From Prosthecobacter sp. (GTDB lineage Bacteria > Verrucomicrobiota > Verrucomicrobiia > Verrucomicrobiales > Verrucomicrobiaceae), in the NCBI GenBank assembly GCA_030827515.1, contig JAUREI010000012.1:1-43074 (forward strand): 43,074 nt of DNA, given 5' to 3'. Both the position numbers and the translations under genes were made by a program. The notes under the pieces were generated by a model that saw only the letters and a list, made by a program, of their open reading frames with translations, did no database searches and had not been told where the DNA came from. Positions 4,441-41,178 of the stretch are shown here, piece after piece; within the stretch, counting starts at the first letter, position 1; each line of letters opens with the position of its first letter.

Positions 4441-6267
4441 TCACATGCGGCAGATGAGCAACTCGCGCTCGTAGATGAGTTCCTTGGGTAGGTGGGTCTT
4501 GAGGTCGATGAAGAGTTCCTCGTGTGAGAGGATTTCCTGGCGCCAGGCCTTGCGATCCACGCGCTGCAGTTCCTCGAAGGCCTGCTTGCTGAAGTTGAGG
4601 CCGGTCCAGTCCATGTCCTCGTAGTGGGGCATCCAGCCGGCCGGTGTCTCCTTGGCGAGGGCGCGGCCGGTGCAGCGTTCAACGATCCACTGCAGCACGC
4701 GCATGTTGTCGCCGAAGCCCGGCCACAGGAAGTTGCCGTCGGCATCCTTGCGGAACCAGTTCACGTTGAAGATGCGCGGCGTCTCGGTGAGACGGCGCTG
4801 CATCGACAGCCAGTGGCGGAAGTAATCGCCCATGTGGTAGCCGCAGAAGGGTAGCATGGCCATGGGGTCGCGGCGCACCTTGCCGATGGTGCCGGCGGCG
4901 GCGGCGGTCATTTCACTGCCCATGGTGGCGCCCATGTACACGCCGGAGCTCCAATTGAAGGCCTGGTAGACGAGCGGCATGGTCGTGGCGCGACGGCCGC
5001 CGAAGATGATGGCGGAGATCGGCACGCCCTCGGGCTTCTGCCAGTCGGGATCGATGGTCGGGCACTGGCCGGCCGGGGCGGTGAAGCGCGAGTTCGGATG
5101 CGCGGCCTTGACGCCCTTTTCGCGGGCAATCTCCGGCGTCCACTGGTTGCCCTGCCAGTCGATGCACTTGGCCGGCGGTTGCTCGGTCATGCCCTCCCAC
5201 CAGACGCCGCCGTCGGGGGTGAGGGCGACGTTGGTGAAGATGGTGTTGCGCGCCAGCGACTTCATCGCGTTGGGATTCGTGTGCTCGCTGGTGCCGGGGG
5301 CGACACCGAAGAAACCGGCCTCGGGGTTGATGGCGTAGAGGCGGCCGTCCGGGCCGGGCTTCAGCCAGGCGATGTCGTCGCCGACGGTCCACACCTTCCA
5401 GCCCTGTTTGAGGTGGTGCTCCGGCGGGATGAGCATGGCAAAGTTGGTCTTGCCGCAGGCGGAGGGGAAGGCGGCGGCGACGTAGGTTTTTTCGCCCTTC
5501 GGATTCTCAACGCCGAGGATGAGCATGTGCTCGGCCATCCAGCCCTCGTCGCGGGCCATGGCGGAGGCGATGCGCAGAGCGAAGCATTTTTTGCCGAGCA
5601 GGGCGTTGCCGCCGTAGCCGGAGCCGTAGCTCCAGATCTCACGGGTCTCGGGGAAGTGGACAATGTATTTCTCCTTGTTGCAGGGCCAGGGCACGTCCTT
5701 CCGGCCCTTCTTCAGCGGCGCGCCGACCGTGTGCATGCAGGGCACGACGCGCTTCTTCGAGGTGTCGATCAGGCGGAAGATCTTTTTGCCGATGCGCGCC
5801 ATGATGCGCATGCTGACGACGACGTAGGGGGAGTCGGTGAGCTGGACGCCGATTTGTGCCATTGGCGAGTCGGGCGGTCCCATGCTGAAGGCGAGCACAT
5901 ACATCGTGCGACCGCGCATGCAGCCGTTGAACAGGCCGCGCAGCTTCACCTTCATCTCGAAGGGGTTCATCCAGTTGTTGGTGGGGCCGGCGCCGTCCTC
6001 GGCCTGCGAGCAGATGAAGGTGCGCTCCTCGACGCGGGCGACATCGCTGACGTCGGACCGGGCGAGAAAGCAGCCGGGCCACTTCTTGGCGTTGAGGCGT
6101 GTCAAGGTGCCGGCCTCGACGAGTTCGTCGCAGAGGCGGTCGTATTCGGCCTTGGTGCCATCGACCCAGTGAATCCGGTCCGGTTTGCAGAGGGCGGCCA
6201 TCTTCTTCACCCAGCGCAGCAGGTGGACGTTCTGGCTCAACGGTTTCGAGGCATTCTTCGTGGGCAT
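4441..6267 (-). CDS. pckG: Phosphoenolpyruvate carboxykinase (GTP)
   Basis: 608 residues, the usual length for GTP-dependent PEPCK. It interconverts oxaloacetate plus GTP with phosphoenolpyruvate, CO2 and GDP in gluconeogenesis or anaplerosis. Visible motifs are the kinase-1a P-loop FPSACGKTN (267-275) with the reactive Cys271 typical of the GTP class, the metal-binding VGDDIAWL (Asp297, Asp298), and the PNSRFTAP segment near 391-398. It is transcribed divergently from korA across a 229-bp gap. A gluconeogenic enzyme beside a 2-oxoacid:ferredoxin oxidoreductase subunit suggests both work around the TCA cycle/PEP node. There is no Shine-Dalgarno before the ATG. Confidence 0.96.
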
Positions 6268-19534: not shown

Positions 19535-19571
19535 AGCGGTCAAATTCCCCTCACAAAAAACGATTTCGTTC

Positions 19572-19599
19572 TTGCATTGTCACGGGCCGTTTCTAATCT
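19572..19599 (+). promoter_or_regulatory. Candidate promoter of the respiratory operon
   Basis: TTGCAT (19572-19577), a 16-nt spacer and TAATCT (19594-19599), in an AT-rich patch between argF and actE. Transcription from it would start near 19606, exactly where the CRP/FNR-type palindrome begins. Confidence 0.45.
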
Positions 19600-19605
19600 T
19601 GGGTC

Positions 19606-19625
19606 CTTGTGAAATTTTTCACAAG
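19606..19625. promoter_or_regulatory. CRP/FNR-type palindromic operator upstream of actE
   Basis: CTTGTGAAA (19606-19614), TT, TTTCACAAG (19617-19625) is a perfect 9-bp inverted repeat. It contains TGTGA-N6-TCACA, the classical CRP-family core. The same TTGTGAAA-N2-TTTCACAA sequence recurs upstream of nuoG at 41161-41178. The factor that binds is not in the window. Its centre lies 42 bp before the actE ATG. Confidence 0.75.
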
Positions 19626-19630
19626 CTCAA

Positions 19631-19651
19631 GACGGGCACCCCCCGTCTTTT
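19631..19651 (+). other. Small hairpin with T-run just before actE
   Basis: GACGGG (19631-19636), loop CACCC, CCCGTC (19642-19647), then TTTT (19648-19651), ending 6 nt before the actE start codon. It resembles a miniature intrinsic terminator or attenuator, or an RNA structure that limits access to the start. Confidence 0.4.
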
Positions 19652-19657
19652 ACATCC

Positions 19658-20317
19658 ATGAAATATTTCTTCCTCAGCTACCTGTTCGTCGCCGCAATCG
19701 TGGCGGCCGCCTTTGGCACGCGCGGCAGCAAGTCGGAACTTCCTCCCCTGGAAATCTTTCAGGACATGGACCACCAGGCGAAGGTCAAGTATCAGGCAAA
19801 AAGCGATTTCTTCGCCGACGGCCTGGGTGCCCGACGCCCGGTGAAAGGCACGGTGCCAATGGGATTTGAAGTGCCCGCGGCGGCGGCCTCTTCCGGCAAA
19901 TACCAGCCCCCCGCCTTCGGTTTTAGCCACGGCGTCGGCTACTATGGCACCGGCAAGATCGGCGACTACTACGGCGACGGCCTGCCGACAGAAATCCAGC
20001 CCTCGAAGAGCCTGCTCGAGCGCGGAGAGCGCCAGTACAACATCTACTGCTCCGTCTGCCACGCTGCTTTCGGCAACGGCAAGGGCGTCACCTCGAAGTA
20101 TGGAATCCTGACCGCCTTCAACTTCCTCCAACCCGGCGCCCTCGATCCGGCGAATGCGGCAGCCTATCGCGCCGACGGCGCGATCTTCGACGTCATCTCC
20201 AACGGCAAGGGCCTCATGGGTCCCTATGGCGGCTCCATCTCCGTTCAGGACCGCTGGGCCATCGTGGCCTACATCCGCGCCCTGCAACTCGCGGCCAAGG
20301 AGAACAACGTCCAGTAA
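19658..20317 (+). CDS. actE: Mono-heme cytochrome c, ActE-like subunit of Alternative Complex III
   Basis: 219 residues. An N-terminal hydrophobic signal or anchor (about 4-20) leads to a periplasmic domain. The segment DFFADGLGARRPVKGTVPMG (about 50-69) is the family signature of ActE. One heme c site is present, Cys131-Ser-Val-Cys134-His135, with probable axial Met187 in GLMGPYGG. In Alternative Complex III, ActE is a membrane-attached cytochrome c that helps pass electrons from quinol toward the oxidase. The gene opens the respiratory operon. It is followed after 18 nt by actF, but actA-actD, which normally precede it, are not here: argF lies directly upstream. Confidence 0.85.
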   Translation: MKYFFLSYLFVAAIVAAAFGTRGSKSELPPLEIFQDMDHQAKVKYQAKSDFFADGLGARRPVKGTVPMGFEVPAAAASSGKYQPPAFGFSHGVGYYGTGKIGDYYGDGLPTEIQPSKSLLERGERQYNIYCSVCHAAFGNGKGVTSKYGILTAFNFLQPGALDPANAAAYRADGAIFDVISNGKGLMGPYGGSISVQDRWAIVAYIRALQLAAKENNVQ

Positions 20318-20335: not shown

Positions 20336-21640
20336 ATGAGTCACCACGTCACCTTCAACGATCTGCCCAAGGGCGGTGAAAAATTCGAGCGGGCCAAGGG
20401 CGCCAAGCTGATCAACGCCTTTGGCACCGCCGCCGGCCTCGGCCTGGCGGGTTCGCTGTACTTCTTCATCGCGAAGACCGACACCTTTGCCTACAGCTGG
20501 CTGTTCGCCTTCTTCTTCGCCTTCACCTTCGTCGCCGGCGGCTGCTTCTGGATTCTCCTGCACAGCGCTTCGAACTCGGGCTGGGGCGTCGCCCTGCGCC
20601 GCCTCTGGGAGCAGCTCGCCAACCTGGTGCTGCCGCTTGCGCTTCTCGGTCTGCCGCTGCTGCTGGTTCCCAAGGTTCAGGACTCGCTCTATGAATGGAT
20701 GGGTCACCACCGTGAGGCGGCCCATCACGCCCACGAATCCGGCGGCACTGTCGAGGAGGCGCTGCACCACATGGCCGAGGGCAACAGCCACCTGCACATC
20801 CTTGTCGACAAGTTCGGTTACCTGAACCTCAACTTCTGGAGCTTCCGCTTCGTCTTCTACTTTTTCGTCCTCTGGCACATCGCCCGCACCTTGCGGCGCA
20901 AGTCGGTCCTGCAGGACCAGGACGGCGACATCAAGCACACGATCAAGTCTCGCACCTTCTCCTGCCGCTGGCTGCTTTTCTATGCGCTGACGGTCACCTT
21001 TGCCGCAGTCGACTGGCTGATGACTCTCGACTACTCCTGGTTCTCGACAATGTGGGGTGTCTACATCTTCGCAGGCTGCGCCTGGGCCTCGATGGCCGCG
21101 ACCATCCTGCTGGTGACCTGGCTGAAGAGCCTGGGCTACCTGAACAAGGTCGTCACCGAGGAACACTACCACCTCATGGGCAAGCTGCTCTTCGCCTTCA
21201 CGGTGTTCTGGGCCTACATCGCCTTCAGCCAGTATTTCCTCATTTGGTATGCCAACATCACCGAGGAGACCCGCTTCTACCTGACCCGCAACACCGAGGG
21301 CTGGCGCTGGGTGTCGATCTTCATTGTCATCGGCCACTTCATTGCGCCCTTCGTCCTGCTGCTCTCGCAGCCTCGCAAGAAGAACCCCGCCGTCATCGGC
21401 CTCGTCTGCCTGTGGATCCTGTTCATGCACCTGGTCGACATCTACTGGAATGTCATCCCCGAGCGCGGCCCGTCCCTCGGCGTCGGCGTCTGGGTGCCCG
21501 GTGCCTGGATTGGCGATGTCTTCGCCCTGCTCGCGATCGTCGGCACGCTCGGTTTCCTGTTCCTGCGCAGCCTCGCCAACCAGAGCCTCTACCCCTGCCG
21601 CGATCCGCGTCTGCTTGAGTCCGCCAACGTTGTCAACTGA
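20336..21640 (+). CDS. actF: ActF-like integral membrane subunit of Alternative Complex III
   Basis: 434 residues with about ten hydrophobic helices. The motifs DWLMTLDYSWFSTMWGVYIFAG and SQYFLIWYANI-EE are characteristic of ActF (annotated as quinol:cytochrome c oxidoreductase subunit 2, an NrfD-like fold). A His-rich loop (MGHHREAAHHAHES, then HLHILVD) lies between helices. In characterised complexes ActF is a structural paralogue of the quinone-binding ActC and anchors the periplasmic subunits. No ActC is present in this window, so whether this ActF binds quinone itself is open. It is followed after 5 nt by a small membrane protein gene. Confidence 0.85.
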   Translation: MSHHVTFNDLPKGGEKFERAKGAKLINAFGTAAGLGLAGSLYFFIAKTDTFAYSWLFAFFFAFTFVAGGCFWILLHSASNSGWGVALRRLWEQLANLVLPLALLGLPLLLVPKVQDSLYEWMGHHREAAHHAHESGGTVEEALHHMAEGNSHLHILVDKFGYLNLNFWSFRFVFYFFVLWHIARTLRRKSVLQDQDGDIKHTIKSRTFSCRWLLFYALTVTFAAVDWLMTLDYSWFSTMWGVYIFAGCAWASMAATILLVTWLKSLGYLNKVVTEEHYHLMGKLLFAFTVFWAYIAFSQYFLIWYANITEETRFYLTRNTEGWRWVSIFIVIGHFIAPFVLLLSQPRKKNPAVIGLVCLWILFMHLVDIYWNVIPERGPSLGVGVWVPGAWIGDVFALLAIVGTLGFLFLRSLANQSLYPCRDPRLLESANVVN

Positions 21641-22043: not shown

Positions 22044-23525
22044 ATGCAGACCTCACCAGCGACCCCGGACACCCAGGCCGATGACCTCCGTCGTGCGGCC
22101 ATTGACAAGTCCGTCAAGGGCCCCGTGCTTTTCCTCTTTCTCAACGGCGCCTTCTGGCTGATGGCCTCGACCATCCTCGGTGTGCTTGCAGCCGTTAAGC
22201 AGTTCGCCCCCGACTTCCTCGGCCCATGCAGCGTGCTGCAATACGGCCGTCTGCAGCCGACCCACGTCAACGCCCTCGTCTACGGCTGGGGCGTTCAGGC
22301 CGGTCTTGGCGCGATGCTCTGGATCATGGCCCGTCGCACTGGTCAGGAACTCAAGTCGGGCAAATCTGTCCTCATGGTGGCCGCGGTGTTCTGGAACATT
22401 GCCCTGACCCTCGGTCTGCTAGGCATTCTCGGTGGTCGCAGCACCTCGATGGAGTGGCTGGAAATGCCGACCTTCGTTTGGCCGGTGATGCTGGCCAGCT
22501 TCCTGGCCTTTGCCTGGCCGATGGCCAGTATGTTCGGTCGCGCCTTCCGCCCCGAGGGATTCATGGTCAGCACCTGGTATGTGTTGGGTGCCTGCTTCTG
22601 GTTCCCGTGGGTCTTCCTCTCCGCCAACGTCGCACTGCACTGCCTGCCTGGCCTCGGTGCGCTCGGTGCCGGAATCAATGCCTGGTATGTTCACGCGCTG
22701 ATCCTGCTTTTCTTCGCCCCGGTCGCTTTGGGCGCCTCCTACTACTTCATTCCAAAGGTCACCGGTCAGCCCATCGCCAGCGCCCAGCTTGCCAAGCTCG
22801 GCTTCTGGATGCTTGCCTTCCTCGGCGGCTGGACCGGCATGCAACATTACATGGGCGGCCCGCTGCCCGCCTGGATGCCCGCCGTCGGCGCTGCCTCAGC
22901 CGTGTTGCTGCTCATCCCGGTCGGCGTCGTCGGTCTCAACCACCATCTCACCACCCTCGGCAAGCACAGCCTCGTGGCCACGAGCCCGACCCTGCGTTTC
23001 GTGTTCTTCGGATCGCTCTTCTACCCGGTCAGTGGCGCACTGCTCGCCCTCATCTCGAATTTCAGCACCGGTGCCAACCTGCAGTTCACCCAGGCCTGGT
23101 ATGGTTTCCAGATCGTCGCTGTCTACGGCTTCTTCAGCATGACCCTGTTTGGCGCCATCTACTACATTGTGCCGCGCCTGTCCGGCTGCGAGTGGCTGTC
23201 GGTGCGCCTGATCCGCAACCACTTCTGGTTCTCGGTCTACGGCATCGCTGCGATCGTTGTCACCAGCCTGGTCGCCGGGGTCCAGCAGGGCGCCGACCTC
23301 AATCATCCGGAGATGTGGGACCAGAACTTCAGCCAGCTCGCGCTGAACCTGCGCCCCTACCTCATCGCCCGCGCCATCGCCTGGACCCTCATCACCTGGT
23401 CCAACTTCTGGTTCCTTGTCCATCTCATGCTCATGGTGGCCGGTCTCGGCCGCCGCAGCTCGGCTCCGACCCTGCTTGCGCATGACCACGAAGACGAAGC
23501 CCTTCCCAACGCCGCCCACGCATGA
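22044..23525 (+). CDS. CcoN-like heme-copper oxidase subunit I homologue with lost active-site residues
   Basis: 493 residues, about twelve helices, plainly homologous to cbb3 CcoN (GRLQPTHVNALVYGWG, WYVHALILLFFAP, GAIYYIVPRL). Two ligand-type histidines remain: His74, equivalent to a low-spin heme b ligand, and His217, equivalent to a CuB ligand. Against Pseudomonas stutzeri CcoN (numbering from memory), the pair His347/His349 in GHVH is Phe355/Ile357, CuB ligand His257 is Gln267, and the cross-linked Tyr251 is Gly261. Only His268 of the HH pair survives. Heme b3, CuB and oxygen reduction are therefore unlikely. The C-terminus is acidic and His-containing. It overlaps the ccoO start by 4 nt (ATGA). 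The ATG at 22044 is chosen over a TTG at 22029. Confidence 0.85.
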   Translation: MQTSPATPDTQADDLRRAAIDKSVKGPVLFLFLNGAFWLMASTILGVLAAVKQFAPDFLGPCSVLQYGRLQPTHVNALVYGWGVQAGLGAMLWIMARRTGQELKSGKSVLMVAAVFWNIALTLGLLGILGGRSTSMEWLEMPTFVWPVMLASFLAFAWPMASMFGRAFRPEGFMVSTWYVLGACFWFPWVFLSANVALHCLPGLGALGAGINAWYVHALILLFFAPVALGASYYFIPKVTGQPIASAQLAKLGFWMLAFLGGWTGMQHYMGGPLPAWMPAVGAASAVLLLIPVGVVGLNHHLTTLGKHSLVATSPTLRFVFFGSLFYPVSGALLALISNFSTGANLQFTQAWYGFQIVAVYGFFSMTLFGAIYYIVPRLSGCEWLSVRLIRNHFWFSVYGIAAIVVTSLVAGVQQGADLNHPEMWDQNFSQLALNLRPYLIARAIAWTLITWSNFWFLVHLMLMVAGLGRRSSAPTLLAHDHEDEALPNAAHA

Positions 23526-24196
23526 CTCAGTTCCGCACGTTCATTCTCGCTCTGATCGCCAGCTTCGGCCTGCCTTGGCTCTGCCTGGTCGTCGTGCCAG
23601 CCGTCAAGTATCAGGCGCTGTCGCCGCTGCCTTATGACAAGGAGGCCGACGGCATGGATGGCTACTACCCGCCGGTTCCGATCAACCGCCAAGGCCAGCT
23701 CGTTTACGCCCGCGAAGGTTGCGTGCAGTGCCACACCCAGATGATCCGCCCGACCCAGCTCGCCCTCGACGGCTGGCGCAAGGGCTGGGGTCAGGACCAG
23801 GAGGCCCGGCCGGCCGCCCCGGTGCGCTCGAATGAACTGCGCGACTACCTTGGCGAACCCTATGCCTTCCTCGGTGTCCAGCGCAGCGGTCCGGACCTCG
23901 CCAACTACGGCTGGCGCGCCCCGGAACGCGCGGTCGTCCACCAGATGCTCTATGCGCCGAAGTCGCAGCACGACTGGTCGAACATGCCGGCCTTCCAGCA
24001 TCTTTATGTCGAGCGCCTCGCTCAGGGGCCGGTCTCATCCAAGGCCCTCAAGCTGACCGGCAAGTTCGCCCCCAAGGCCGGCTACGAAGTGGTGCCGACC
24101 GCCGAGGCCGAAGCCCTGGTCGACTACCTACTGTCCCTCAAGAAAGACTACCCGGTCCCCGCAAAGGCCGCCGTGGCGGCGACACCCGCCCCCTGA
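23522..24196 (+). CDS. ccoO: CcoO-like cytochrome c subunit (cbb3 oxidase subunit II type)
   Basis: 224 residues. An N-terminal transmembrane anchor (about 6-28) is followed by a periplasmic cytochrome c domain. The heme motif Cys67-Val-Gln-Cys70-His71 lies in the CcoO-typical stretch GQLVYAREGCVQCHTQMIRP. FLGVQRSGPDLANYG and the axial Met of NMPAF also match the family. In cbb3 oxidases CcoO feeds electrons to CcoN. Here CcoN is degenerate while CcoO looks intact, so CcoO may serve only as an electron carrier toward the aa3 oxidase encoded next. Translationally coupled to the CcoN-like gene by an ATGA overlap. Confidence 0.88.
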   Translation: MTQFRTFILALIASFGLPWLCLVVVPAVKYQALSPLPYDKEADGMDGYYPPVPINRQGQLVYAREGCVQCHTQMIRPTQLALDGWRKGWGQDQEARPAAPVRSNELRDYLGEPYAFLGVQRSGPDLANYGWRAPERAVVHQMLYAPKSQHDWSNMPAFQHLYVERLAQGPVSSKALKLTGKFAPKAGYEVVPTAEAEALVDYLLSLKKDYPVPAKAAVAATPAP

Positions 24197-24227
24197 GTCT
24201 GCAACTTCCCGCGATCCGCCAACGCTC

Positions 24228-24962
24228 ATGAGCGCCCCCCATTCCCCGATGAACACCGACAGCACCGACCTCGACCGCCTGCACGCCGCCGTGCGCCGTG
24301 AAAAGGCCGACCTCGAGCCGGGGCGCGAGCCCGCGCCCCTGTGGGTCATGTTCCTGTTCATGATCATTGCCATCGTCGCCGGCGGACAGCTGGGCCCAAT
24401 GACCGGCGGCTGGAGCTTTTCCGTCAGCAATCCGTTCTCGCTCGCCCGGCACGGGGATCCCCGCCCGGGCGGCGGTGCCGGTGCCGGCGCGACCGATCCC
24501 TTCCAGACGGCAATGAAGAAGGGCTCCAGCGGTTATGCTGTCTGCGGCGGCTGTCACCAGGGCAGCGGCACGGGCATTCCCGGACAGTATCCGCCGCTCG
24601 CCGGCTCGGAATGGGTCAATGGCGGTACCGAGCGCCTGATCCGCGTCGTCCAGCACGGTCTTGTCGGTCAGGTGACGGTTGCCGGCCAAAACTACAATTT
24701 CCCGGGCGGCATGCAGCCCTTCGGTGCCGCGATGTCCGCCGGCGACCTCGCCAACGTGCTCACCTACATCCGCAACACCTGGGGCAACGAGGGCACGATG
24801 ATCACCAAGGAAATGGTCGAGAAGGTCCGCAAGGACGAGTCCGCGCGCGCCAAGCAGTGGACCCAGGCCGAGCTTGAGTCCTTCGCCTCCGCCAACGTCC
24901 CCGGCGAAATCCCCGCTGGTCCCGGCGCCACCGTCGCCGCTGAAGCCGCACCGGCCAAGTAA
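24228..24962 (+). CDS. Membrane-anchored mono-heme cytochrome c
   Basis: 244 residues. A short cytoplasmic N-terminus is followed by one transmembrane helix (about 38-53), a Gly-rich linker (GGGAGAGA) and a class I cytochrome c domain with Cys106-Gly-Gly-Cys109-His110. A probable Met ligand lies in GGMQPFGAAM. The tail is charged and Ala-rich. It occupies the place of CcoP in a ccoNO-type cluster but has one heme, where CcoP has two. It may donate electrons to the CuA site of the aa3 oxidase. The start could also be the in-frame ATG at 24249. The next gene, ctaD, starts 25 nt downstream. Confidence 0.82.
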   Translation: MSAPHSPMNTDSTDLDRLHAAVRREKADLEPGREPAPLWVMFLFMIIAIVAGGQLGPMTGGWSFSVSNPFSLARHGDPRPGGGAGAGATDPFQTAMKKGSSGYAVCGGCHQGSGTGIPGQYPPLAGSEWVNGGTERLIRVVQHGLVGQVTVAGQNYNFPGGMQPFGAAMSAGDLANVLTYIRNTWGNEGTMITKEMVEKVRKDESARAKQWTQAELESFASANVPGEIPAGPGATVAAEAAPAK

Positions 24963-24986: not shown

Positions 24987-26936
24987 ATGAGCGCCACCAC
25001 CCACGATTCCAAGCAAGGAGCCGACCACGGGCACGATCACCACGAGCCGGGTTTCATCGGCAAGTACGTCTTTTCGACCGACCACAAGATCATCGGCGTG
25101 CAGTATGCAGTCTCCGGCCTGCTGTTCCTGCTGCTGGGTTTCTTCCTGATGCTGCTCATGCGCTGGAGCATTGCCTTCCCGGGCCAGGAGGTTCCTGGAC
25201 TGGCGTTCGTGGAAAAGCTGCCGCTGCTCGGCCCCATCTTCCACGAAATGATCGGTCGCTGGGCCCCCGGCGGCGTCGTCAACGGTGAGCTCTACAACAT
25301 GCTGGGCGCCATGCACGGCACCATCATGGTCTTCCTCGGCATCGTGCCCCTCGGGTTCGCCGGTTTCGTCAATTTCGTCATGCCGCTCCAGATCGGCACG
25401 ATCGACATGGCCTTCCCGCGCCTGAACATGTGGAGCTACTGGCTGTTCCTGGTCAGTGGCATCATGATGCTCGCCAGCTTCTTCGTCGGCACGGGCTCGG
25501 TGCAGACCGGCTGGACCATGTATTCGCCGCTTGCCTCGACGACCACCCTGGCGGTCACCAACATCTGGATGCACGGCCACACCTGGTGGCTGCTGGCGAT
25601 GGTGTTCAACATCTCCGCCTCGCTGCTCGGCTCGGTGAACGTCATCACCACCGTCATCAACCTGCGCGCCAAGGGCATGTCCTGGATGCGCATGCCGTTC
25701 TTCTGCTGGGCGATGTTCGTCACCAGCTTCCTGCTCCTGCTGGCCTTCCCGCCGCTTGAAGTGGCCGCCCTGCTGCAGCTCGTCGACCGCGTTTTCGGCG
25801 CCAGCTTCTTCCTGCCGACCGGCCTCATGGAAGGCGGCCAGCACCTCGACATCGCCGGTGGCGGCAGCCCACTGCTCTACCAGCACCTGTTCTGGTTCCT
25901 CGCCCACCCGGAGGTGTACGTGCTCATTCTTCCGGCCTTCGCCATCCTGGCCGAGGTCATCCCGGCCAACACCCGTCGCCCTCTCTGGGGCTACAAGTCG
26001 ATGGTCTACGCCACGCTCACCCTCGGCTTCCTGAGCTTCCTCGTCTGGGCTCACCACATGTACCTCACCGGCATGGGGACGATGATGTCGACCTACTTCC
26101 AGATCACCACGGTGCTGATCTCGGTCCCCTCCGTCATCCTGCTCACCGGCCTGATGATTTCGCTCTGGGGCGGTTCCATCCGCTTCACCCCGCAGATGCT
26201 GTTCGCTTCCGCCTTCCTGCCGATGTTCGGCATCGGCGGTCTGACCGGCCTGCCGCTGGCCTTCACCTTCATCGACCTGGCCTTGCACGACACCTACTAC
26301 GTGATCGGCCACTTCCACTACGTCGTCGCCCCGGGCACGATCTTCGCCCTGTTTGCCGGTGTCTATCACTGGTATCCGAAGATCACCGGCCGCTACATGA
26401 GCGACAAGCTTGGCAAGCTGCACTTCTGGCCCTCGCTGCTGGGCATGAACCTGGTCTTCGCGCCGATGTTCATCCAGGGCATGGGCGGTTTCCACCGCCG
26501 CTGGTATGACGGCGGCAAGTATTTCGAGCAGACCTCCGGTGTCTCGAACTTCTGGACCGAACTCAACTCCTCGATCTTCGGCCTGTTTGGCATGGAAGTG
26601 CCCAACAACCTGCTTGGCCTCAACGTGCTGATGTCGGTCGGCGCCTTCATCCTCGCCCTCGGCCAGGTACCCTTCATCCTGAATGTCTTCCTCAGCATCA
26701 AGGGCGGTCGCAAGACGAACAGCGACAATCCCTGGCACTGCACCACCCTTGACTGGGCGACGCCGACTCCGCCGCCGCACGGCAACTTCGACTTCGAGCC
26801 CGTCGTCGTCCGCGGTCCCTACGAGTACAGCGTGCCGGGCATTGACCAGGACTACTTCCCGCAGTGGGAGATCGAGCCGGGCAAGGCGGCGCCCGTGCCG
26901 GCCGGCGCCCCGGCCTCCGCGCCCGCCCATCATTGA
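24987..26936 (+). CDS. ctaD: Cytochrome c oxidase subunit I (aa3 type)
   Basis: 649 residues, twelve core helices. All catalytic ligands are present: His110 and His444 for low-spin heme a, His442 for heme a3, and His307, His356 and His357 for CuB. The cross-linking Tyr311 in HPEVY, with Glu309, marks an A1-type enzyme. Asp140 in TIDMAFPRLN fits the entrance of the D proton channel. It reduces O2 to water and pumps protons in the cytoplasmic membrane. The N-terminus is His-rich (DHGHDHHE, about 13-20) and the C-terminus carries a Pro/Ala tail. This is the only catalytically complete oxidase subunit I in the window. Confidence 0.97.
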   Translation: MSATTHDSKQGADHGHDHHEPGFIGKYVFSTDHKIIGVQYAVSGLLFLLLGFFLMLLMRWSIAFPGQEVPGLAFVEKLPLLGPIFHEMIGRWAPGGVVNGELYNMLGAMHGTIMVFLGIVPLGFAGFVNFVMPLQIGTIDMAFPRLNMWSYWLFLVSGIMMLASFFVGTGSVQTGWTMYSPLASTTTLAVTNIWMHGHTWWLLAMVFNISASLLGSVNVITTVINLRAKGMSWMRMPFFCWAMFVTSFLLLLAFPPLEVAALLQLVDRVFGASFFLPTGLMEGGQHLDIAGGGSPLLYQHLFWFLAHPEVYVLILPAFAILAEVIPANTRRPLWGYKSMVYATLTLGFLSFLVWAHHMYLTGMGTMMSTYFQITTVLISVPSVILLTGLMISLWGGSIRFTPQMLFASAFLPMFGIGGLTGLPLAFTFIDLALHDTYYVIGHFHYVVAPGTIFALFAGVYHWYPKITGRYMSDKLGKLHFWPSLLGMNLVFAPMFIQGMGGFHRRWYDGGKYFEQTSGVSNFWTELNSSIFGLFGMEVPNNLLGLNVLMSVGAFILALGQVPFILNVFLSIKGGRKTNSDNPWHCTTLDWATPTPPPHGNFDFEPVVVRGPYEYSVPGIDQDYFPQWEIEPGKAAPVPAGAPASAPAHH

Positions 26937-26975
26937 CGCCCACCGAGAACCGAGTCCCTCCGCCTCCCTTCACTC

Positions 26976-28328
26976 ATGGACATCCCTTACACCGTTTCCG
27001 CCCGTCCTGACACGGGCCTGTACAACGCCAAGATCGGCATCTGGCTCTTCCTTGCCTCGGAAGTCATGCTGTTCGGCGGTCTGTTCTCCTCCTACATTTT
27101 CCTGCGCGTCGGGGCCGACTACCACTGGCCGGTGCACGAGCTGAACGTCACCCTCGGTTTCATCAACACCCTGGTGCTGATCGCCTCCTCGGTCACCGTG
27201 GTCATGGCCTGGGCCTCGCTGAAGCTGCGTCGCATCGGCCAGTTCAAGCTCTACATGCTCATCACCGTGCTCTGCGCGGGCGTGTTCATGGTCAACAAGA
27301 CCTTTGAATACAAGGCCAAGTTCGAGCACTACGCGGTGAAGCTTACCGACGGCACCTACCTGACCGGTCACCTGCCGGAAGGCTATGAAATCAAGTTTGG
27401 CGAGGTCGGTGACCTGACACTCACGGTCCAGGCCAGGACCAGCGCCATCGACGCCGATCCGGTCGATTACGTGCTGCCCTTCCTGGCCGGCGGCGAAGCC
27501 CGCTTCAAGACCGAGGACGGTTCCGAGATCGAGTTGAACGAAACGACCTTCGCCGACCTGCGCGAGAAGGCCCTCGCCAAGGCCGCCACCGAAGGCAAGA
27601 ACAACGCCGCCATCAAGCTGGTTCCCACCTCCCCGCTCGCCTTCAAGGCCAAGCCCGGCAAGATCCTCGGTTACAACGCCACGACGATGACCTTCCGCGA
27701 CGGCAGCATTGCCACCGGCAAGCTCACCGACGACAGCATGGTCCTCGAGGTTGACGGCGTCGACACCCGCTCGGTGCCGGATGCCGAGAAATCGCTCGCC
27801 TGGAATGCTGGTTACCTCGGTGACGCCTGGAAGAAGGCCTTCGTCGAAAACCGCGACCACCACCTCAAGGCCTTCGAGGAAAAATACGGCGACCGCCGCG
27901 ATCCGAAGAAGAGCGCCACCCTGCAGAAGGAAGCCTTCTTCATGCACCTGCACTCCGCCACGCCGGAGGCCGGTCACGGCGATGACCACGGCGAGAAAAA
28001 GGCCGCCGCCGGTGCTCCTGCCGAGCATGGCGACGCCCATCACGCGCATCATCCTGTCGTCAAGATCGACAAGAAGGACATCGCCTTCTACTCGAACTTC
28101 ACGCCCAAGCTGAACACCTACTACGCGATTTACTTCACGCTGACCGGCCTGCACGGACTGCACGTCGTCGCCGGCGCCCTGGTGCTGGCCTACTTCCTCT
28201 TCATGGATGGCCGCCGTCTGCGCGAGAACCCCGAGCACCTCGCCAACCGCGTCGAGGTTGGCGGTCTGTTCTGGCACTTCGTTGACCTCGTGTGGATCTT
28301 CCTGTTCCCGCTGCTCTATCTCCTGTAA
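26976..28328 (+). CDS. ctaE: Cytochrome c oxidase subunit III with a large soluble insertion
   Basis: 450 residues, against roughly 200-270 for most bacterial subunit III. Residues 1-112 hold the first helices ([22 protein letters not shown]) and residues about 370-450 hold the last ones ([33 protein letters not shown]). Between them lies a hydrophilic insertion of about 250 residues. It contains two similar short units, [11 protein letters not shown] (123-133) and [11 protein letters not shown] (230-240), and a His/Asp-rich stretch (about 333-360). The membrane core looks normal for a stabilising subunit III. The insertion's role is unknown; it should face one side of the membrane next to the complex. 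Start 39 nt after ctaD. Confidence 0.9.
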
Positions 28329-28346
28329 TCCCCGCTTCCGACCGCC

Positions 28347-28658
28347 ATGGCTGATTCGCCCGAAGAAATCCAGAAGTCGATCCGCAAGTATCTGTGGATT
28401 GGCGCCCTTCTCATCCTGTTCACCATCATCACGGTGGCGCTCTCCTACGTTGAGTTGCCCACCCACAGCCTGAACATCCTGGTCGGCATGATCGTTGCGA
28501 CCTTCAAGGCGGCGCTGGTGGCCCTCATCTTCATGCACTTGAACCATGAGCGCCCGCTCATCTACAAGGTGCTCGCCTTCACCACGGTGTTTGCGCTGGC
28601 TTTGTTCATGCTCTTCATCTTCACCTCCGGCGACCCCCTCGTCTTCGAGGGTTTCTGA
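28347..28658 (+). CDS. ctaF: Cytochrome c oxidase subunit IV (prokaryotic type)
   Basis: 103 residues with three hydrophobic helices. The pattern LNILVGMIVATFKAALVALIFMHL with a conserved Lys and the MHL motif is typical of the small bacterial subunit IV (COX4_pro family) found next to subunit III. It is thought to stabilise the CuB region during assembly. It lies 18 nt after ctaE and 19 nt before the next small gene, inside the operon, without a Shine-Dalgarno. Confidence 0.88.
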   Translation: MADSPEEIQKSIRKYLWIGALLILFTIITVALSYVELPTHSLNILVGMIVATFKAALVALIFMHLNHERPLIYKVLAFTTVFALALFMLFIFTSGDPLVFEGF

Positions 28659-28677
28659 GCCCGGTCCGTCTGACGCC

Positions 28678-28884
28678 ATGTCCCTCAAGCACTTCCATAT
28701 CGTCTTTCTTTTCTTCGCCATCCTGTGCGATCTCGGGTTCTTCCTGTGGACGCGCCTGCTGCCGGAGAAGGCCGAGGCGATGGGCGTTGCCGGTCTGGGC
28801 ATGCTCGCCGGCTGGCTGAGCCTGGTTCTCACCGCCTACGGCGTGTGGTATGTCGTAAAAAAAAGCCGCCGCATCATCGTCTGA
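28678..28884 (+). CDS. 68-residue two-helix membrane protein
   Basis: A short protein with two hydrophobic helices (about 7-24 and 36-60) ending in a basic cluster (KKSRR) that should face the cytoplasm. No family is recognised. Codon use (G/C third positions) and spacing (19 nt after ctaF, 3 nt before the next gene) match the operon and support a real gene. It probably encodes an accessory subunit or assembly factor of the oxidase. Confidence 0.65.
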   Translation: MSLKHFHIVFLFFAILCDLGFFLWTRLLPEKAEAMGVAGLGMLAGWLSLVLTAYGVWYVVKKSRRIIV

Positions 28885-28887
28885 CCC

Positions 28888-29067
28888 ATGAACCTGCTCG
28901 CCTGCGCCACCTGCCGACCCGATCCTGGAAGCCTCATGGCCCAGGCTCAGGACATGGCCGTTCTGGTCATGCTGGGCTTCCTCATGCTTGGCATGGGCGC
29001 CATCGGTCTCATTGTCATGCACTTCGCCCGCAAGCAGCGCCAGGCCGCCGCTCCGCTGGACGCCTGA
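28888..29067 (+). CDS. 59-residue CxxC membrane micro-protein
   Basis: Starts MNLLACATCRPDPG and ends KQRQAAAPLDA. The N-terminus has a Cys6-xx-Cys9 pair, followed by one Met-rich transmembrane helix (about 22-44, with several Met) and a basic cytoplasmic end. It starts 3 nt after the preceding stop, and its stop is 31 nt before ctaC. The CxxC and the Met-rich helix could suit copper or redox handling during CuA assembly, but that is speculation. It is easily missed because of its size. Reading frame and third-position GC fit the operon. Confidence 0.6.
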   Translation: MNLLACATCRPDPGSLMAQAQDMAVLVMLGFLMLGMGAIGLIVMHFARKQRQAAAPLDA

Positions 29068-29098
29068 ACCCCATTCCCCTGATTTTTCCCCCATCCCC

Positions 29099-29878
29099 AT
29101 GAGCGTCTCCGACATCAACCACTGGTTTGGCATCACCCAGAACGCCTCCGAGCACGGCGGTCTGGTGGACCACATGCTCGGCTTCGTGCACTGGTTCATG
29201 CTCTTCCTGTTCATTGGCTGGTCGATCTTCCTGATCATCGCCTTCACGAAGTTCCGCCAGTCAAAGAGCCCGAAGGCCGACTACCACGGCGTTCGCGGCC
29301 ATGCCTCGACCCACATCGAAATCGGTGTTGTCATCGTTGAGGCGATCCTGCTGCTCGGTTTCGCCTTCCCGCTCTGGTCGCGCCAGGCCGATGACTACCC
29401 GACCTCGCCCGACACGATCAAGATGCGCGCCCTCGGCGAGAAGTTTCTCTGGAACTTCCAGTATCCGGGCGATGACCTCATGCTTTCCAGCTGGGATCCG
29501 CGCCAGGTGTCAGCCGCCAACCAGGTGGGCCGCGACCTGCAGGATCCGAACGGCAAGGATGACTTCGTCAACCCCGGCACGATGAAGCTGCCGGTCAACC
29601 GTCCGGTCATCGTCGATGTCGCCAGCAAGGACGTCATTCACAACCTCGCCATCGTGCCGATGCGCGCCGCCCAGGACGCCTGCCCGGGCGTCAAGGCGCA
29701 CATGTGGTTCAAGCCGGTGCGCACCGGCACCTGGGACATCATCTGCGGCCAGCTCTGCGGCCCGGGTCACGCCCAGATGAAGGCCGTGCTCGAAGTCGTC
29801 GAGGGCCCCGAATTCGACGAGTGGGCCAAGGAAATGTCCACCGCCGCCGCCGCCAAGAGCGCCGAGCCGGCCAAGTGA
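29099..29878 (+). CDS. ctaC: Cytochrome c oxidase subunit II (CuA)
   Basis: 259 residues. Two transmembrane helices (about 29-50 and 74-93) precede a periplasmic cupredoxin domain. The CuA ligands are complete: His181, Cys216, Cys220, His224 and Met227, in DVIHN and CGQLCGPGHAQM. Gln stands where many enzymes have the Glu that contributes only its backbone carbonyl. No cytochrome c domain is fused, so this is not a caa3-type subunit II; the separate cytochromes earlier in the operon must deliver electrons. Unusually, it comes last, after subunits I, III and IV. A strong terminator follows 27 nt after the stop. Confidence 0.95.
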   Translation: MSVSDINHWFGITQNASEHGGLVDHMLGFVHWFMLFLFIGWSIFLIIAFTKFRQSKSPKADYHGVRGHASTHIEIGVVIVEAILLLGFAFPLWSRQADDYPTSPDTIKMRALGEKFLWNFQYPGDDLMLSSWDPRQVSAANQVGRDLQDPNGKDDFVNPGTMKLPVNRPVIVDVASKDVIHNLAIVPMRAAQDACPGVKAHMWFKPVRTGTWDIICGQLCGPGHAQMKAVLEVVEGPEFDEWAKEMSTAAAAKSAEPAK

Positions 29879-29905
29879 GGCCGTCCGTCAGTTTTCTTTC
29901 GGAAT

Positions 29906-29940
29906 GTCCCGCTTCCCCCCGGAGGCGGGACGTTTTGTTC
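29906..29940 (+). terminator. Intrinsic terminator ending the respiratory operon
   Basis: GTCCCGCTTCC (29906-29916), loop CCCC, GGAGGCGGGAC (29921-29931), an 11-bp stem with one G-U pair, then GTTTTGTT. It sits between ctaC and ctaA and ends about 6 nt before the ctaA start codon. Confidence 0.8.
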
Positions 29941-29945
29941 CTGTC

Positions 29946-30956
29946 ATGACCCGTTTTCAACGCATCGCCCTGACCGCCTTCCTCGCGGTGGAGTTGCTCA
30001 TCTTCGTCGGTGCGGTCGTGCGCGCGACTGGATCGGGCCTCGGCTGCCCGGACTGGCCCTTCTGCTATGGCTGCCTGGTGCCGCCGACGCGGGCGGAGGA
30101 CATCGATTTCGAGCGGCTCGACCTGGAAAAGTTCCGTGCCAAGGCCGAGCGCCACGGACGCGATCCGGCGACCATCACCCCGGAGACCCTGCGCGCCGAG
30201 TTCGATCCGGTGGCGACCTGGGTCGAGTATCTCAACCGCCTGACGAGCCTGCCGGTCGGGCTGTCGGTCGTTGTTCTGCTCGGGGCGGGTTTTGGCGAAA
30301 TCTATCGCGGCCGCGCTCGTGTCTTCTTCGCCGCCCTCGCCGCCTTCCTGCTCGTCGGCATCAATGCCTGGCTGGGGGCGCGCGTCGTTTTCAGCGGCCT
30401 TCAGCCCGGCATCATCACCCTGCACATGGCCCTCGCCATCCTGCTTCAGTGCGTGCTGGTCTACACCGTCTGGCGCGGGTGTGACCGCCCCTGGCGACTC
30501 GACTGGAAGCAGGGCGTGCCGGCCCCCGGCCTGCGCCGCCTCGCCTGGGCGCTGTTCCTGCTGGTCGCCGTCGAGGGGGTCATGGGCTCGCAGGTGCGGG
30601 AGTTGACCGATGAACTGGCGCGCAGCCATGCCGGCGAACCTCGCGCGCAGTGGGTGGTCGAACTGGAGTCGAGCACCGTTTATCTCGTTCACCGCAGCTT
30701 TTCCTGGCTGCTCGTCGGTGCGGGCATCGCTTTCTGGCTGGGTTCGGGTCGGCACCTGCGCCGCGCCGGCCGGCTCGAGAAGGCGGTGCTTGGGCTGATC
30801 CTCGCCCAGATGGCGCTCGGCATCGTCCTCGCCCACATCGGCATCCTGCCGGTGGCCCAGGTCCTGCACATTGGCCTGTCCTCGCTTCTGGTCAGCGCCC
30901 TCTTCCTCTGGCTGCTTGGCGCAAACGCCCCTGGCGAAAGCGCCTCACGCGCGTAA
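29946..30956 (+). CDS. ctaA: Heme A synthase (CtaA/COX15 family)
   Basis: 336 residues, about eight helices. It oxidises the C8 methyl of heme O to give heme A for the aa3 oxidase. Conserved features are the Cys-containing first periplasmic loop (GLGCPDWPFCYGC), His160 (ITLHMALA), His249 (VYLVHRSF) and His308 (QVLHIGL). Where Bacillus CtaA has an E-xx-H motif, this protein has Glu94-Tyr-Leu-Asn97-Arg, so one of the four expected histidines is Asn. The start at 29946 is preferred to an ATG at 29904 that lies in the terminator stem region. It is followed after 12 nt by ctaB. Confidence 0.92.
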   Translation: MTRFQRIALTAFLAVELLIFVGAVVRATGSGLGCPDWPFCYGCLVPPTRAEDIDFERLDLEKFRAKAERHGRDPATITPETLRAEFDPVATWVEYLNRLTSLPVGLSVVVLLGAGFGEIYRGRARVFFAALAAFLLVGINAWLGARVVFSGLQPGIITLHMALAILLQCVLVYTVWRGCDRPWRLDWKQGVPAPGLRRLAWALFLLVAVEGVMGSQVRELTDELARSHAGEPRAQWVVELESSTVYLVHRSFSWLLVGAGIAFWLGSGRHLRRAGRLEKAVLGLILAQMALGIVLAHIGILPVAQVLHIGLSSLLVSALFLWLLGANAPGESASRA

Positions 30957-30968
30957 GCTTCACCCCTG

Positions 30969-31904
30969 ATGGCCGACCGATCCGATCCCGAGTCCCCTGC
31001 ACGCAGTTCGACGCTCAACGACCTGCTCGTGCTGACCAAGTTCCGTCTCAGTGCCCTGGTCATTGTCACCACCTTCGTCGGCTTCTGGCTGCGCCGCGGG
31101 CCGGACTGGAGTGGCTGGCTCCTCTTCCACACCCTGCTTGGCAGCAGTCTTGCCGCCTTCGGTGCCGCGGTCTTCAACCAACTCATGGAGATCGAGCCCG
31201 ATTCGCGCATGACGCGCACGGCCGACCGACCTCTGCCCTCGGGCCGGGTCAGCCCCGGGTCGGCCTTCGCCATCGGCTGGCTGCTCAGCGCCTTTGCCCT
31301 CATCCACCTCGGCGCCAAGGTCAATGTCGAGGCCGCCGCGCTCACCGCACTCACCCTGGCGGTCTATCTGTTCCTGTATACCCCGCTGAAAAAGCAGTCG
31401 CCGGTCAACACCCTGGTTGGCGCGGTCTCCGGCGCGTTGCCGCCGCTCATCGGCTGGGCCGGCGCCGCCGGTCCGACGCCCGCGGGAGAAAAATACTTCC
31501 GCTGGGAACTGCTCATCGAACCGGGAGCGATCTACCTCTTCGCCCTGCTGTTCCTCTGGCAGTTGCCGCACTTCCTTGCCATCAACTGGATGTATCGCGA
31601 CGAGTACCGCCGTGGTGGTTTTGTCATGCTGGCCAACGAGGACGAGCATGGTGTGCGCACCTCGCGCCACGCGCTCGCCTACTCGGTCGCCACCCTTCTG
31701 CTGATGTTTTATCCCGTGCAGAGTGGTTTGGTCAGTGCTGCAGGGTTTCTGCCGCCGGCCCTGCTGCTGGCCGGCTGGCTTTGCCGGCTCGCCCTTGCCT
31801 TCCAGAAACAGCCGGAGCGCGCCACCGCCCGCAAGCTCTTCTTCAGCACGCTGGCCTACCTGCCGGGAGCCCTGATTCTCACCTGCCTGGCCTGGAAACG
31901 CTGA
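30969..31904 (+). CDS. ctaB: Protoheme IX farnesyltransferase (heme O synthase)
   Basis: 311 residues and about nine helices of the UbiA prenyltransferase superfamily. It adds a farnesyl group to heme B to make heme O, the substrate of the preceding ctaA product. The first motif is NQLMEIEPDSRMTRTADRP (about 74-92), where the first acidic residue is Glu rather than the usual Asp. The second is the YTPLKKQSPVNTLVGAVSGALPP stretch, with a third conserved loop at NWMYRDEYRRGGF. The N-terminus (about 1-17) is polar. The ctaA-ctaB pair next to the oxidase operon supplies its heme A. Confidence 0.95.
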   Translation: MADRSDPESPARSSTLNDLLVLTKFRLSALVIVTTFVGFWLRRGPDWSGWLLFHTLLGSSLAAFGAAVFNQLMEIEPDSRMTRTADRPLPSGRVSPGSAFAIGWLLSAFALIHLGAKVNVEAAALTALTLAVYLFLYTPLKKQSPVNTLVGAVSGALPPLIGWAGAAGPTPAGEKYFRWELLIEPGAIYLFALLFLWQLPHFLAINWMYRDEYRRGGFVMLANEDEHGVRTSRHALAYSVATLLLMFYPVQSGLVSAAGFLPPALLLAGWLCRLALAFQKQPERATARKLFFSTLAYLPGALILTCLAWKR

Positions 31905-39376: not shown

Positions 39377-41101
39377 TCAGCCGACGATGAGACCCTTGGC
39401 GCGGCGCTCCTTCTCGCGTTCGAGCAGCGGCACCTTTTCCTCGGTCTCGACCACCGGCACGCCGAGGCCGCCAATGCCGTCAAAGGTCAGGCCCTTCAGG
39501 CAGGCGATCTCGCTGGCGAGGCGGGTGAAGACGTCGGCGGCGCTGTCCGGACCCGACTCACCGCCGCAGGCGGCGACGAGGTCGCGCAGGATGGCAAGGG
39601 TGTCGCGGGCGTTGCCGGGGCTCTGGATGGCCTTGTTGAGGCGCTGCAGGCGGCCGGTGACGTTGATCATGCTGCCGTCCTTTTCCGCGTAGGAGTTGCC
39701 GGGAAGAACCGCGTGGGCGTAATCGGCGGCGGCGTGGGCGAGGATGTGCAGGGAGACGAAGTAGCCGGCCTTTTCGAGTTCGCGCGCCTCGAAGCCGGCC
39801 TTGAGCAGGTCCTCGCCAAGGGCGATGACCAGCTTGAGACGACCGCGGCCGAGCAGTTCACGGATGCCTTCAAGCATCGCGCCGGGCTTCTGGATGCCGA
39901 GGATGTGGCGGACACCGAGGCTGTTCGGGTTGAGGTCGTCGGCACGCAGGTAGCCGTCGGCCCCGCCGGTGCGCGGCACGACGTCGAGGTTGTCGGTGCC
40001 GAGGGTGTCGGCCAGCTTGCGAACGTAGTGCAGTTCCTCGTTGGTGGAACGGGCGCTGGCGACGATGGCGATCTCCTCGCCCTTGAGGCCGCGCGCGGCC
40101 TCGGCGATGGCCTGCAGGGTTTCGGTCCACTTGGCGGTCTCGTGACGGCCGGCCTTCTTCAGCAGGGGATCGGTGAGGCGGAACTCGCTGTTGACGAAGT
40201 GGAAGTCGAGACGGCCCTGGTCGCACATCCAGTTCGAGTTGACGTCGTTGTTCTCGCGAGGGGTCTGGCGGAACAGCGTGTTGCCACGCGCGCCGATGAC
40301 CGTGTTGCAGCCGCGACCGCACTTCGTGCAGAGGCTGTCAGTTTCACTGAGGAACCAGACGCGCTGCTGGAAGCGGAAGTCGGTGCTGGTGAGGGCGCCA
40401 ACCGGGCAGATGTCGACCGTGTTGAGGGAGTAATTGTTCTCCAGACGCTTGCCGGGATGCACCGCCAGGGTTGTGTAGCTGCCGCGCTCGGTGAAGCCGA
40501 GCACCGGGTCGTCGGCGATCTCGGCGGTGAAGCGGATGCAGCGGCTGCACATGATGCAGCGCTCGTCGTCAAGGCGGACACGCGGCCCGATGTCGACGTT
40601 CTTCGGTTTCTTGACCTTGTTTTCGCGGAAGCGGCTCTCGCCCTTGCCGTGCTCGACGCTGAATTCCTGCAGGCGGCATTCGCCGGCCTGGTCGCAGATC
40701 GGGCAGTCGAGCGGGTGATTGATGAGCAGGAACTCCATCACGCCCTTGCGGCATTCCTGGGTGAGGATGGAGTCGGTGCGGATGCCCATGCCCTCGGCGA
40801 CCGTGTTGGCGCAGGCGATGACCGGGCGCGGCATCCAGCCGATCTTCGGCATGCCGTGCTCGTCCTTCTCCGGCTCCTGGCCCGGTTGCGGGCGCGGCGG
40901 CATGCCCATTTCCACCAGACACATGCGGCAGTTGCCGGGGCTGGTCAGCTTCGGGTGATAGCAGTAATGCGGCACCTCCTTCCTGGCCTGCTTGCAGGCC
41001 TCAATCATGCGCGTGCCCTTGGGGAACTTGTGCCAGACGCCATCGATCTGCACGTTCACCAGGTCGACAGGCGGGGGCGCGGCGGGGGCGGGGGTGGACA
41101 T
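39377..41101 (-). CDS. nuoG: NADH-quinone oxidoreductase subunit G, compact form
   Basis: 574 residues, shorter than the roughly 900 of Escherichia coli NuoG. Fe-S ligands are visible in order: [2Fe-2S] Cys47, Cys58, Cys61 and Cys97; His129-x3-Cys133, Cys136, Cys142 (His/Cys-type 4Fe-4S); Cys182, Cys185, Cys188 and Cys232; and an extra N7-type site Cys258, Cys261, Cys265, Cys293. The spacing from Cys61 to Cys97 is widened by a Pro/Glu-rich insert. The remainder is a truncated molybdopterin-oxidoreductase-like domain. It carries electrons from NuoF toward quinone in complex I. No other nuo gene is adjacent. A CRP/FNR-type site and promoter precede it. Confidence 0.93.
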   Translation of the reverse strand: MSTPAPAAPPPVDLVNVQIDGVWHKFPKGTRMIEACKQARKEVPHYCYHPKLTSPGNCRMCLVEMGMPPRPQPGQEPEKDEHGMPKIGWMPRPVIACANTVAEGMGIRTDSILTQECRKGVMEFLLINHPLDCPICDQAGECRLQEFSVEHGKGESRFRENKVKKPKNVDIGPRVRLDDERCIMCSRCIRFTAEIADDPVLGFTERGSYTTLAVHPGKRLENNYSLNTVDICPVGALTSTDFRFQQRVWFLSETDSLCTKCGRGCNTVIGARGNTLFRQTPRENNDVNSNWMCDQGRLDFHFVNSEFRLTDPLLKKAGRHETAKWTETLQAIAEAARGLKGEEIAIVASARSTNEELHYVRKLADTLGTDNLDVVPRTGGADGYLRADDLNPNSLGVRHILGIQKPGAMLEGIRELLGRGRLKLVIALGEDLLKAGFEARELEKAGYFVSLHILAHAAADYAHAVLPGNSYAEKDGSMINVTGRLQRLNKAIQSPGNARDTLAILRDLVAACGGESGPDSAADVFTRLASEIACLKGLTFDGIGGLGVPVVETEEKVPLLEREKERRAKGLIVG

Positions 41102-41125: not shown

Positions 41126-41153
41126 ATTATCGGAGCCGTGGCAGGTGCGGCAA
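41126..41153 (-). promoter_or_regulatory. Predicted nuoG promoter
   Basis: On the minus strand, TTGCCG (41148-41153), a 16-nt spacer and GATAAT (41126-41131). Transcription would start near 41119, giving a leader of about 18 nt that contains CTCTTTTTTTGA just before the ATG. Confidence 0.55.
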
Positions 41154-41160
41154 CCCGAAT

Positions 41161-41178
41161 TTGTGAAAAATTTCACAA
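41161..41178. promoter_or_regulatory. CRP/FNR-type palindromic operator upstream of nuoG
   Basis: TTGTGAAA (41161-41168), AA, TTTCACAA (41171-41178): a perfect 8-bp inverted repeat with TGTGA-N6-TCACA. It matches the site upstream of actE except for the central two bases. It lies about 7 bp upstream of the predicted nuoG -35 box, centred near -50 from the predicted start. The gap 41179-41296 otherwise holds only a GCCCGG/CCGGGC hairpin. Confidence 0.75.

Follow-up and report, generated by a model that had tools for sequence, protein, structure and literature searches.

The locus raises two questions: which regulator recognizes the perfect palindromes that precede respiratory genes at two places in this DNA, and how much of the respiratory chain does that regulator control? 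The window, meaning the whole 43,074-nucleotide stretch that we analyzed, corresponds to contig C313 in a Prosthecobacter draft genome of 4.05 Mb that is 96% complete. The original prediction had described two perfect palindromes, and both are exact: TTGTGAAA-N2-TTTCACAA occurs at 19607-19624, with a TT core on the plus strand, and at 41161-41178, with an AA core on the plus strand, the two being one identical 18-mer in opposite orientations. TGTGA-N6-TCACA is part of both 18-mers, also as predicted. No further match was found in the window with up to 3 mismatches, and 100 dinucleotide shuffles of the window gave a mean of 0.03 such matches and at most 1. Base composition predicts ~4e-5 perfect copies in 4 Mb. 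We therefore rejected a chance origin, which the prediction had likewise considered very unlikely. The AT-rich surroundings that it described hold for the first site, where the GC content of positions 19540-19657 is 46% compared to 65% for the window, and only in part for the second, where the GC content is 58% on the nuoG side and 77% on the opposite side.

The first palindrome (TTGTGAAATTTTTCACAA on the plus strand, 19607-19624; predicted Rex operator 1, for the reasons given below) is located 33 nt ahead of actE, the first gene of a cytochrome/oxidase operon. A promoter predicted by eye and by alignment (TTGCAT-16-TAATCT, 19572-19599, plus strand) lies upstream of the palindrome, which directly follows the -10 box and would cover approximately the first 18 nt (~+1 to +18) of the transcript predicted from it; a stricter promoter scan called no promoter at the actE head. 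The plus-strand genes past the palindrome start with a mono-heme cytochrome gene (19658-20317) and a membrane subunit gene (20336-21640) whose product has no Pfam or NCBIfam match; from their position, we take these to be actE-like and actF-like. They are followed by genes for a COX1-family protein, a FixO-like protein, and a cytochrome c (22044-24962), for cytochrome oxidase subunits I, III, IV-like, and II (24987-29878; NCBIfam matches under the equivalog cut-offs), and for ctaA-like and ctaB-like heme A functions (29904-31904), the last two named from their sequence by eye. Family models matched the 450 aa oxidase subunit III homologue (26976-28328) separately at ~18-131 and 373-450, as if the protein were split by a long insert. 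The second palindrome (TTGTGAAATTTTTCACAA on the minus strand, 41161-41178; predicted Rex operator 2) lies 59 nt ahead of the complex I subunit gene nuoG (39377-41101, minus strand) and 7 bp upstream of the -35 box of TTGCCG-16-GATAAT (41126-41153, minus strand), the sole promoter-like site called there. The nuoG product scored 448.5 bits against TIGR01973 (cut-off 470.05), and the closest NuoG in the genome collection, at 82% identity, was found in MAGs with the labels Prosthecobacter and Verrucomicrobiaceae.

A CRP/FNR-family protein had been proposed to occupy these sites. CRP/FNR regulons are characterized by a TGTGA-N6-TCACA core and an activator-like placement upstream of the -35 box; the core is shared here, and the placement at the nuo and atp heads (described below) is activator-like as well. 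The 18-mer also fits TTGTGAA-N4-TTCACAA, which in the available excerpts of two papers corresponds to the published Rex operator TTGTGAAW4TTCACAA (PMC2883068) and to a similar Rex operator sequence from Streptomyces avermitilis (PMC5355995). Since this Rex consensus includes TGTGA-N6-TCACA, the core is common to CRP and Rex operators and does not discriminate between them. Unlike CRP/FNR operators, the sites have a constant outer T/A and inner AA/TT, and profile searches of the 96% complete genome found no CRP/FNR protein: the sole protein to pass the HTH_Crp_2 cut-off (L227) is of the GntR/FCD type, one more weak match is below the cut-off (C264, E 5e-4), and the four cyclic-nucleotide-domain proteins gave no HTH match. 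The CRP/FNR family does exist in the order, given that HTH_Crp_2 matches, often weak, were present in 25 of 28 relatives (above the cut-off in 13) and that one relative, G020, encodes a genuine CRP/FNR-type protein. Two genomes with 8 sites each (G008 and G027) nevertheless yielded no HTH_Crp_2 match at E<=1e-3.

The genome contains a single rex gene (C214). Its product carries both PF06971 (the DNA-binding N domain) and PF02629 (the Rossmann domain) and exceeds the cut-offs of six NCBIfam Rex models, and its nearest solved Rex is 2vt2 (E 2.2e-43). An RK pair and a TRG wing touch bases in solved Rex complexes, according to the excerpt available (PMC8836258), and in an alignment of LRKDLTYFGQFGTRGLGY with solved Rex, these base-contact residues (Arg, Lys, and the wing Arg-Gly) are conserved. 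Because no CRP/FNR protein was found in the genome and the sites follow rex across genomes of the order and class (see below), we rejected the CRP/FNR assignment as very improbable.

The original prediction had proposed a genome-wide motif search as a check. We found 7 copies in the genome, every one perfect, and 0 with 1-2 mismatches; a reversed-pattern control in the same genome gave 0 matches. All seven precede respiratory operons, namely, nuoDE, nuoF, nuoG, nuoH-I-J-K-L with a nuoM-like gene, atpB-E-F-H-A-G, actA-B-C-D, and the actE-actF-oxidase genes, with start codons following at distances of 19-67 nt. The act, atpG, and nuoM genes were recognized by eye or by position, and for the act proteins tested, family models gave no more than general cytochrome and Fe-S matches. 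Many copies inside coding sequence, which were to have counted against a regulon, were not seen: six of the seven sites are intergenic, flanked by called genes, and at the seventh (C98), a spurious antisense ORF from the gene caller overlays both nuoD and the site. Complex I genes occur at at least 6 places in the genome, and the operator is present at 4 of them. It is absent from nuoB (L229), which keeps a promoter resembling the operator-adjoining one of relatives, and from nuoA (C92, L194), where the best match has 6 mismatches. These findings strongly support the proposal that complex I and the terminal oxidase share one regulon, and alternative complex III and ATP synthase belong to it as well. 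In this group of bacteria, most parts of the respiratory chain have the operator ahead of them, and the entire energy system could therefore be adjusted by one sensor. We conclude that both palindromes in the window are very probably operators of Rex, a winged-helix NADH/NAD+ sensor, within a seven-site respiratory regulon. This predicted Rex regulon is unusually coherent.

The available excerpt on S. avermitilis describes a similar arrangement, in which nuo, atp, cyd, and ndh2 are preceded by Rex operators and NADH relieves the repression (PMC5355995). The best genome matches there have 1-3 mismatches, whereas the sites in our genome are perfect; moreover, complex I is scattered here, four of its parts have an operator, and the targets include alternative complex III. 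Staphylococcus aureus Rex has the identical 18-bp consensus, but its targets are mainly fermentation and nitrate genes in the text available (PMC2883068), in contrast to the aerobic chain here. A literature search found no described Rex regulon in the Verrucomicrobiales among the matches listed. Our data suggest that in this order, complex I, alternative complex III, the oxidase, and ATP synthase are all under one redox switch, and they offer a route by which complex I genes spread over several loci may be co-regulated.

The motif was also expected upstream of orthologous genes in relatives, and at nuoG, this footprint was evident. A nuoG survey of the named collection yielded 80 loci, 77 of them usable after 3 near contig ends were dropped; a perfect site was present at 49 of the 77 and a single-mismatch site at 1, so that 50 of 77 carry the operator, and the remaining 27 had four or more mismatches. 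The best matches in shuffled sequences had 5-9 mismatches, and several of the 27 operator-less nuoG loci appear by eye to be inside a longer nuo operon. For a wider view, we fetched 137 sites with at most 1 mismatch (121 perfect, 16 with one) from 29 genomes, taking every reported site except in G009 (3/6), G021 (4/5), G158 (1/7), G273 (1/5), and G198 (7/8). Target genes were assigned for 127 sites (119 by blastx and 8 from inspection of the adjacent gene, with Pfam confirming some). The other 10 stayed without an assignment (L081, L100, L101, L120, L153, L154, L159, L160, L161, and L181); one of these, L120, which is beside a rhodanese gene at a contig end, probably belongs to nuoG. Among the assigned sites, 126 of 127 were before respiratory or quinone-synthesis genes and 1 was before pgk. 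The head genes were atpB (25), nuoD (20), actA (19), nuoG (13), nuoB (12), polyprenyl diphosphate synthase (9), nuoF (6), nuoH (5), nuoE (4), actE (4), nuoM (2), mqnE-like (2), ndh2 (2), and nuoJ, pgk, cydA, and coxB (one each). Perfect operators in relatives precede genes for polyprenyl diphosphate synthase, pgk-tpi, cydA, an mqnE-like protein, and type II NADH dehydrogenase (loci L088, L097, L116, L145, L146, L155, L180, and L192); through these extra targets, the regulon there includes quinone supply and other dehydrogenases. In more distant relatives, we noticed by eye operators near cupredoxin-like genes (L153, L160) and aminotransferase genes (L154, L161), which might be lineage-specific targets.

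We then compared the occurrence of rex and of operators in 285 genomes of the phylum with at least 95% completeness, counting sites with at most 1 mismatch. Genomes that were not listed were counted as site-free (only 20 of the 161 genomes without a match were named), and rex matches with E >1e-8 in the order and class, all of them sub-cut-off, were counted as rex-less. On this basis, every one of the 45 rex-containing genomes of the order carried sites, 2-11 in each, compared to 0 sites in 29 of the 31 genomes without rex and one site in the other 2. The rest of the class behaved alike: at least one site was present in 10 of 10 genomes with rex (two or more in 9), and among 126 without rex, 123 had 0 sites and 3 had one. 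In the other classes of the phylum, only 7 of 59 Rex genomes had a site, a single one-mismatch site in each, near the reversed-pattern background. The pairing of Rex and site thus applies within this class but not phylum-wide, and Rex alone is no predictor of the operator in the other classes.

Complex I is retained without rex: nuoD was kept in all 29 rex-less genomes of the order that were tested, and nuoA was present in the rex-less G018 and G025. Three of the genomes lacking rex, all in family f2 but not in genus g2, have altered operators before nuoD, with 1 mismatch in G169, 2 in G269, and 5 in G238; the 5 mismatches of G238 are within chance reach, and the position beside the promoter is unchanged. 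The operator had also been lost at two nuoG loci: L308 has 7 mismatches and retains the promoter, and L256 has 4 mismatches and retains the right arm. We predicted beforehand that the genomes containing them would have no rex, and a rex match was absent from both (2/2), compared to the presence of rex in 17 of 18 genomes with an intact or one-mismatch nuoG operator. Genomes of this kind, without rex and with an altered operator, amount to natural knock-outs. There was no rex match despite the presence of sites in G009 (90% complete, 6 sites), G021 (83% complete, 5 sites), and the L303 genome, for which assembly gaps are the likely explanation.

Unexpectedly, two promoter geometries were apparent among the operator-bearing heads. 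Of 87 nuo and atp heads, 81 had a TTG 5-8 bp past the operator, with a spacer of mostly 16-18 bp and an AT-rich -10 box after it; shuffles averaged 4.0 such heads and never exceeded 12. Among 50 nuoG loci, the gap was 7 bp in 46 and 6 bp in the other 4, and the nuoG operator in the window extends from ~-59 to -42 by standard numbering. At actE (4/4) and polyprenyl synthase (7/9) heads, the TTG box instead preceded the operator by 32-38 bp, and the operator lies over the predicted start point. The actA heads were mixed: 4 of 19 were of the upstream type, 5 had a TTG box 37-38 bp upstream, and the remainder were neither. The upstream arrangement was also seen at one cydA head. The base directly after the operator was A in 82 of 89 upstream-type heads, and GC directly followed it in 20 of 30 downstream-type heads. 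The promoter boxes at nuo and atp were weak, with mean matches of 3.8/6 (-35) and 3.6/6 (-10); among 29 downstream-type heads, a -35 was recognizable in 18, where it was slightly better at 4.3/6, and in 11 there was none.

Recurrence of the 18-mer together with a similar -35 flank at several heads could suggest a mobile repeat or a promoter cassette copied without any binding protein. The likeness, however, stops at the operator and promoter boxes, the core dinucleotide varies, and there are no copies where rex is missing; we rejected this explanation, whose probability appears negligible.

As established for Rex in general, the protein holding NAD+ binds its operator when NADH is low and releases it when NADH rises. 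Our data show the operator sequence, the rex gene, the membership of the regulon, the geometry, and the joint loss; binding, the response to NADH, and the sign of regulation are what we infer for this organism. Rex-NAD+ would occupy the operators under scarce NADH and depart as NADH builds up, so that the respiratory chain would follow electron supply. Where the operator is on the predicted start point, as at the oxidase operon, it is positioned to block RNA polymerase, and occupancy should block transcription. At nuo and atp, the operator beside the -35 box at near-fixed spacing could serve either repression or polymerase contact. In the excerpts available, published Rex sites overlap promoters or are only a few bp away from them, and they are interpreted as sites of repression (PMC5355995, PMC2883068); we consider repression slightly more likely at nuo and atp too, with activation as a real alternative.

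Under that alternative, Rex would have two opposite effects, activating nuo and atp from upstream of the -35 box via RNA polymerase and repressing the actE/oxidase and quinone genes from the start point. The near-fixed spacing, which is exact to within 1 bp at all 50 nuoG loci, and the weak nuo and atp promoter boxes favour this reading, and an activating role has been suggested for Rex in Streptococcus mutans, with the site left unresolved in the excerpt available (PMC3441419); the near-fixed upstream placement is a concrete candidate for that proposal. The phrase 'activated by Rex' also occurs in PMC8389512. The nuoD promoters of rex-less genomes also scored higher (8.66, n=29, versus 7.84, n=19), a comparison confounded by 26 of the 29 coming from one genus, by spans of ~170 versus 42 bp, and by a possible difference in base composition. 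After recent rex loss, however, the nuoD promoter is still weak (6.7 in G169 and 6.2 in G238), and the -35 boxes of downstream-type heads are only slightly better than those at nuo and atp. The cydA head that shares the upstream geometry also argues against activation from this position, given that cyd is expected to need derepression at high NADH. S. avermitilis Rex represses both nuo and atp, and its footprints overlap the -35 or the start (atpI, -50 to -22; nuoA1, -42 to -16; cydA1, -3 to +25) in the text available (PMC5355995), whereas the nuo and atp operators here end upstream of -35. In S. aureus, some operators lie a few bp outside the promoter, and such upstream sites are read as repressing; a shared fixed spacing is not reported in the available excerpt (PMC2883068). 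We likewise found no description of the fixed upstream geometry of nuo and atp in the excerpts of the Rex literature searched. Weighing these points, we regard two opposite effects as a serious possibility, if a somewhat improbable one. That Verrucomicrobiales Rex is a dual regulator of all oxidative phosphorylation, activating complex I and ATP synthase and repressing alternative complex III, oxidase, and quinone genes, seems to us somewhat less likely than not; if true, a single NADH signal would shift the balance of electron entry versus exit.

Autoregulation through a canonical operator at rex is common in Rex regulons, though not universal. Nine of 34 rex loci passed our motif filter, the other 25 being dropped rather than counted as negative, and a canonical N4 operator was present at 0 of these 9 readable loci. 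Seven of the 9 have a palindrome that is 2 bp shorter, GTGAA-N2-TTCAC. In the Prosthecobacter genome itself (L050, ~4970-4988), the GTG start of rex (C214) directly follows the compressed palindrome, which overlaps the likely -10 box, and the same arrangement was observed in L014, L015, L017, L314, L326, and L327. The pattern looks as if rex were transcribed as a leaderless, self-regulated mRNA.
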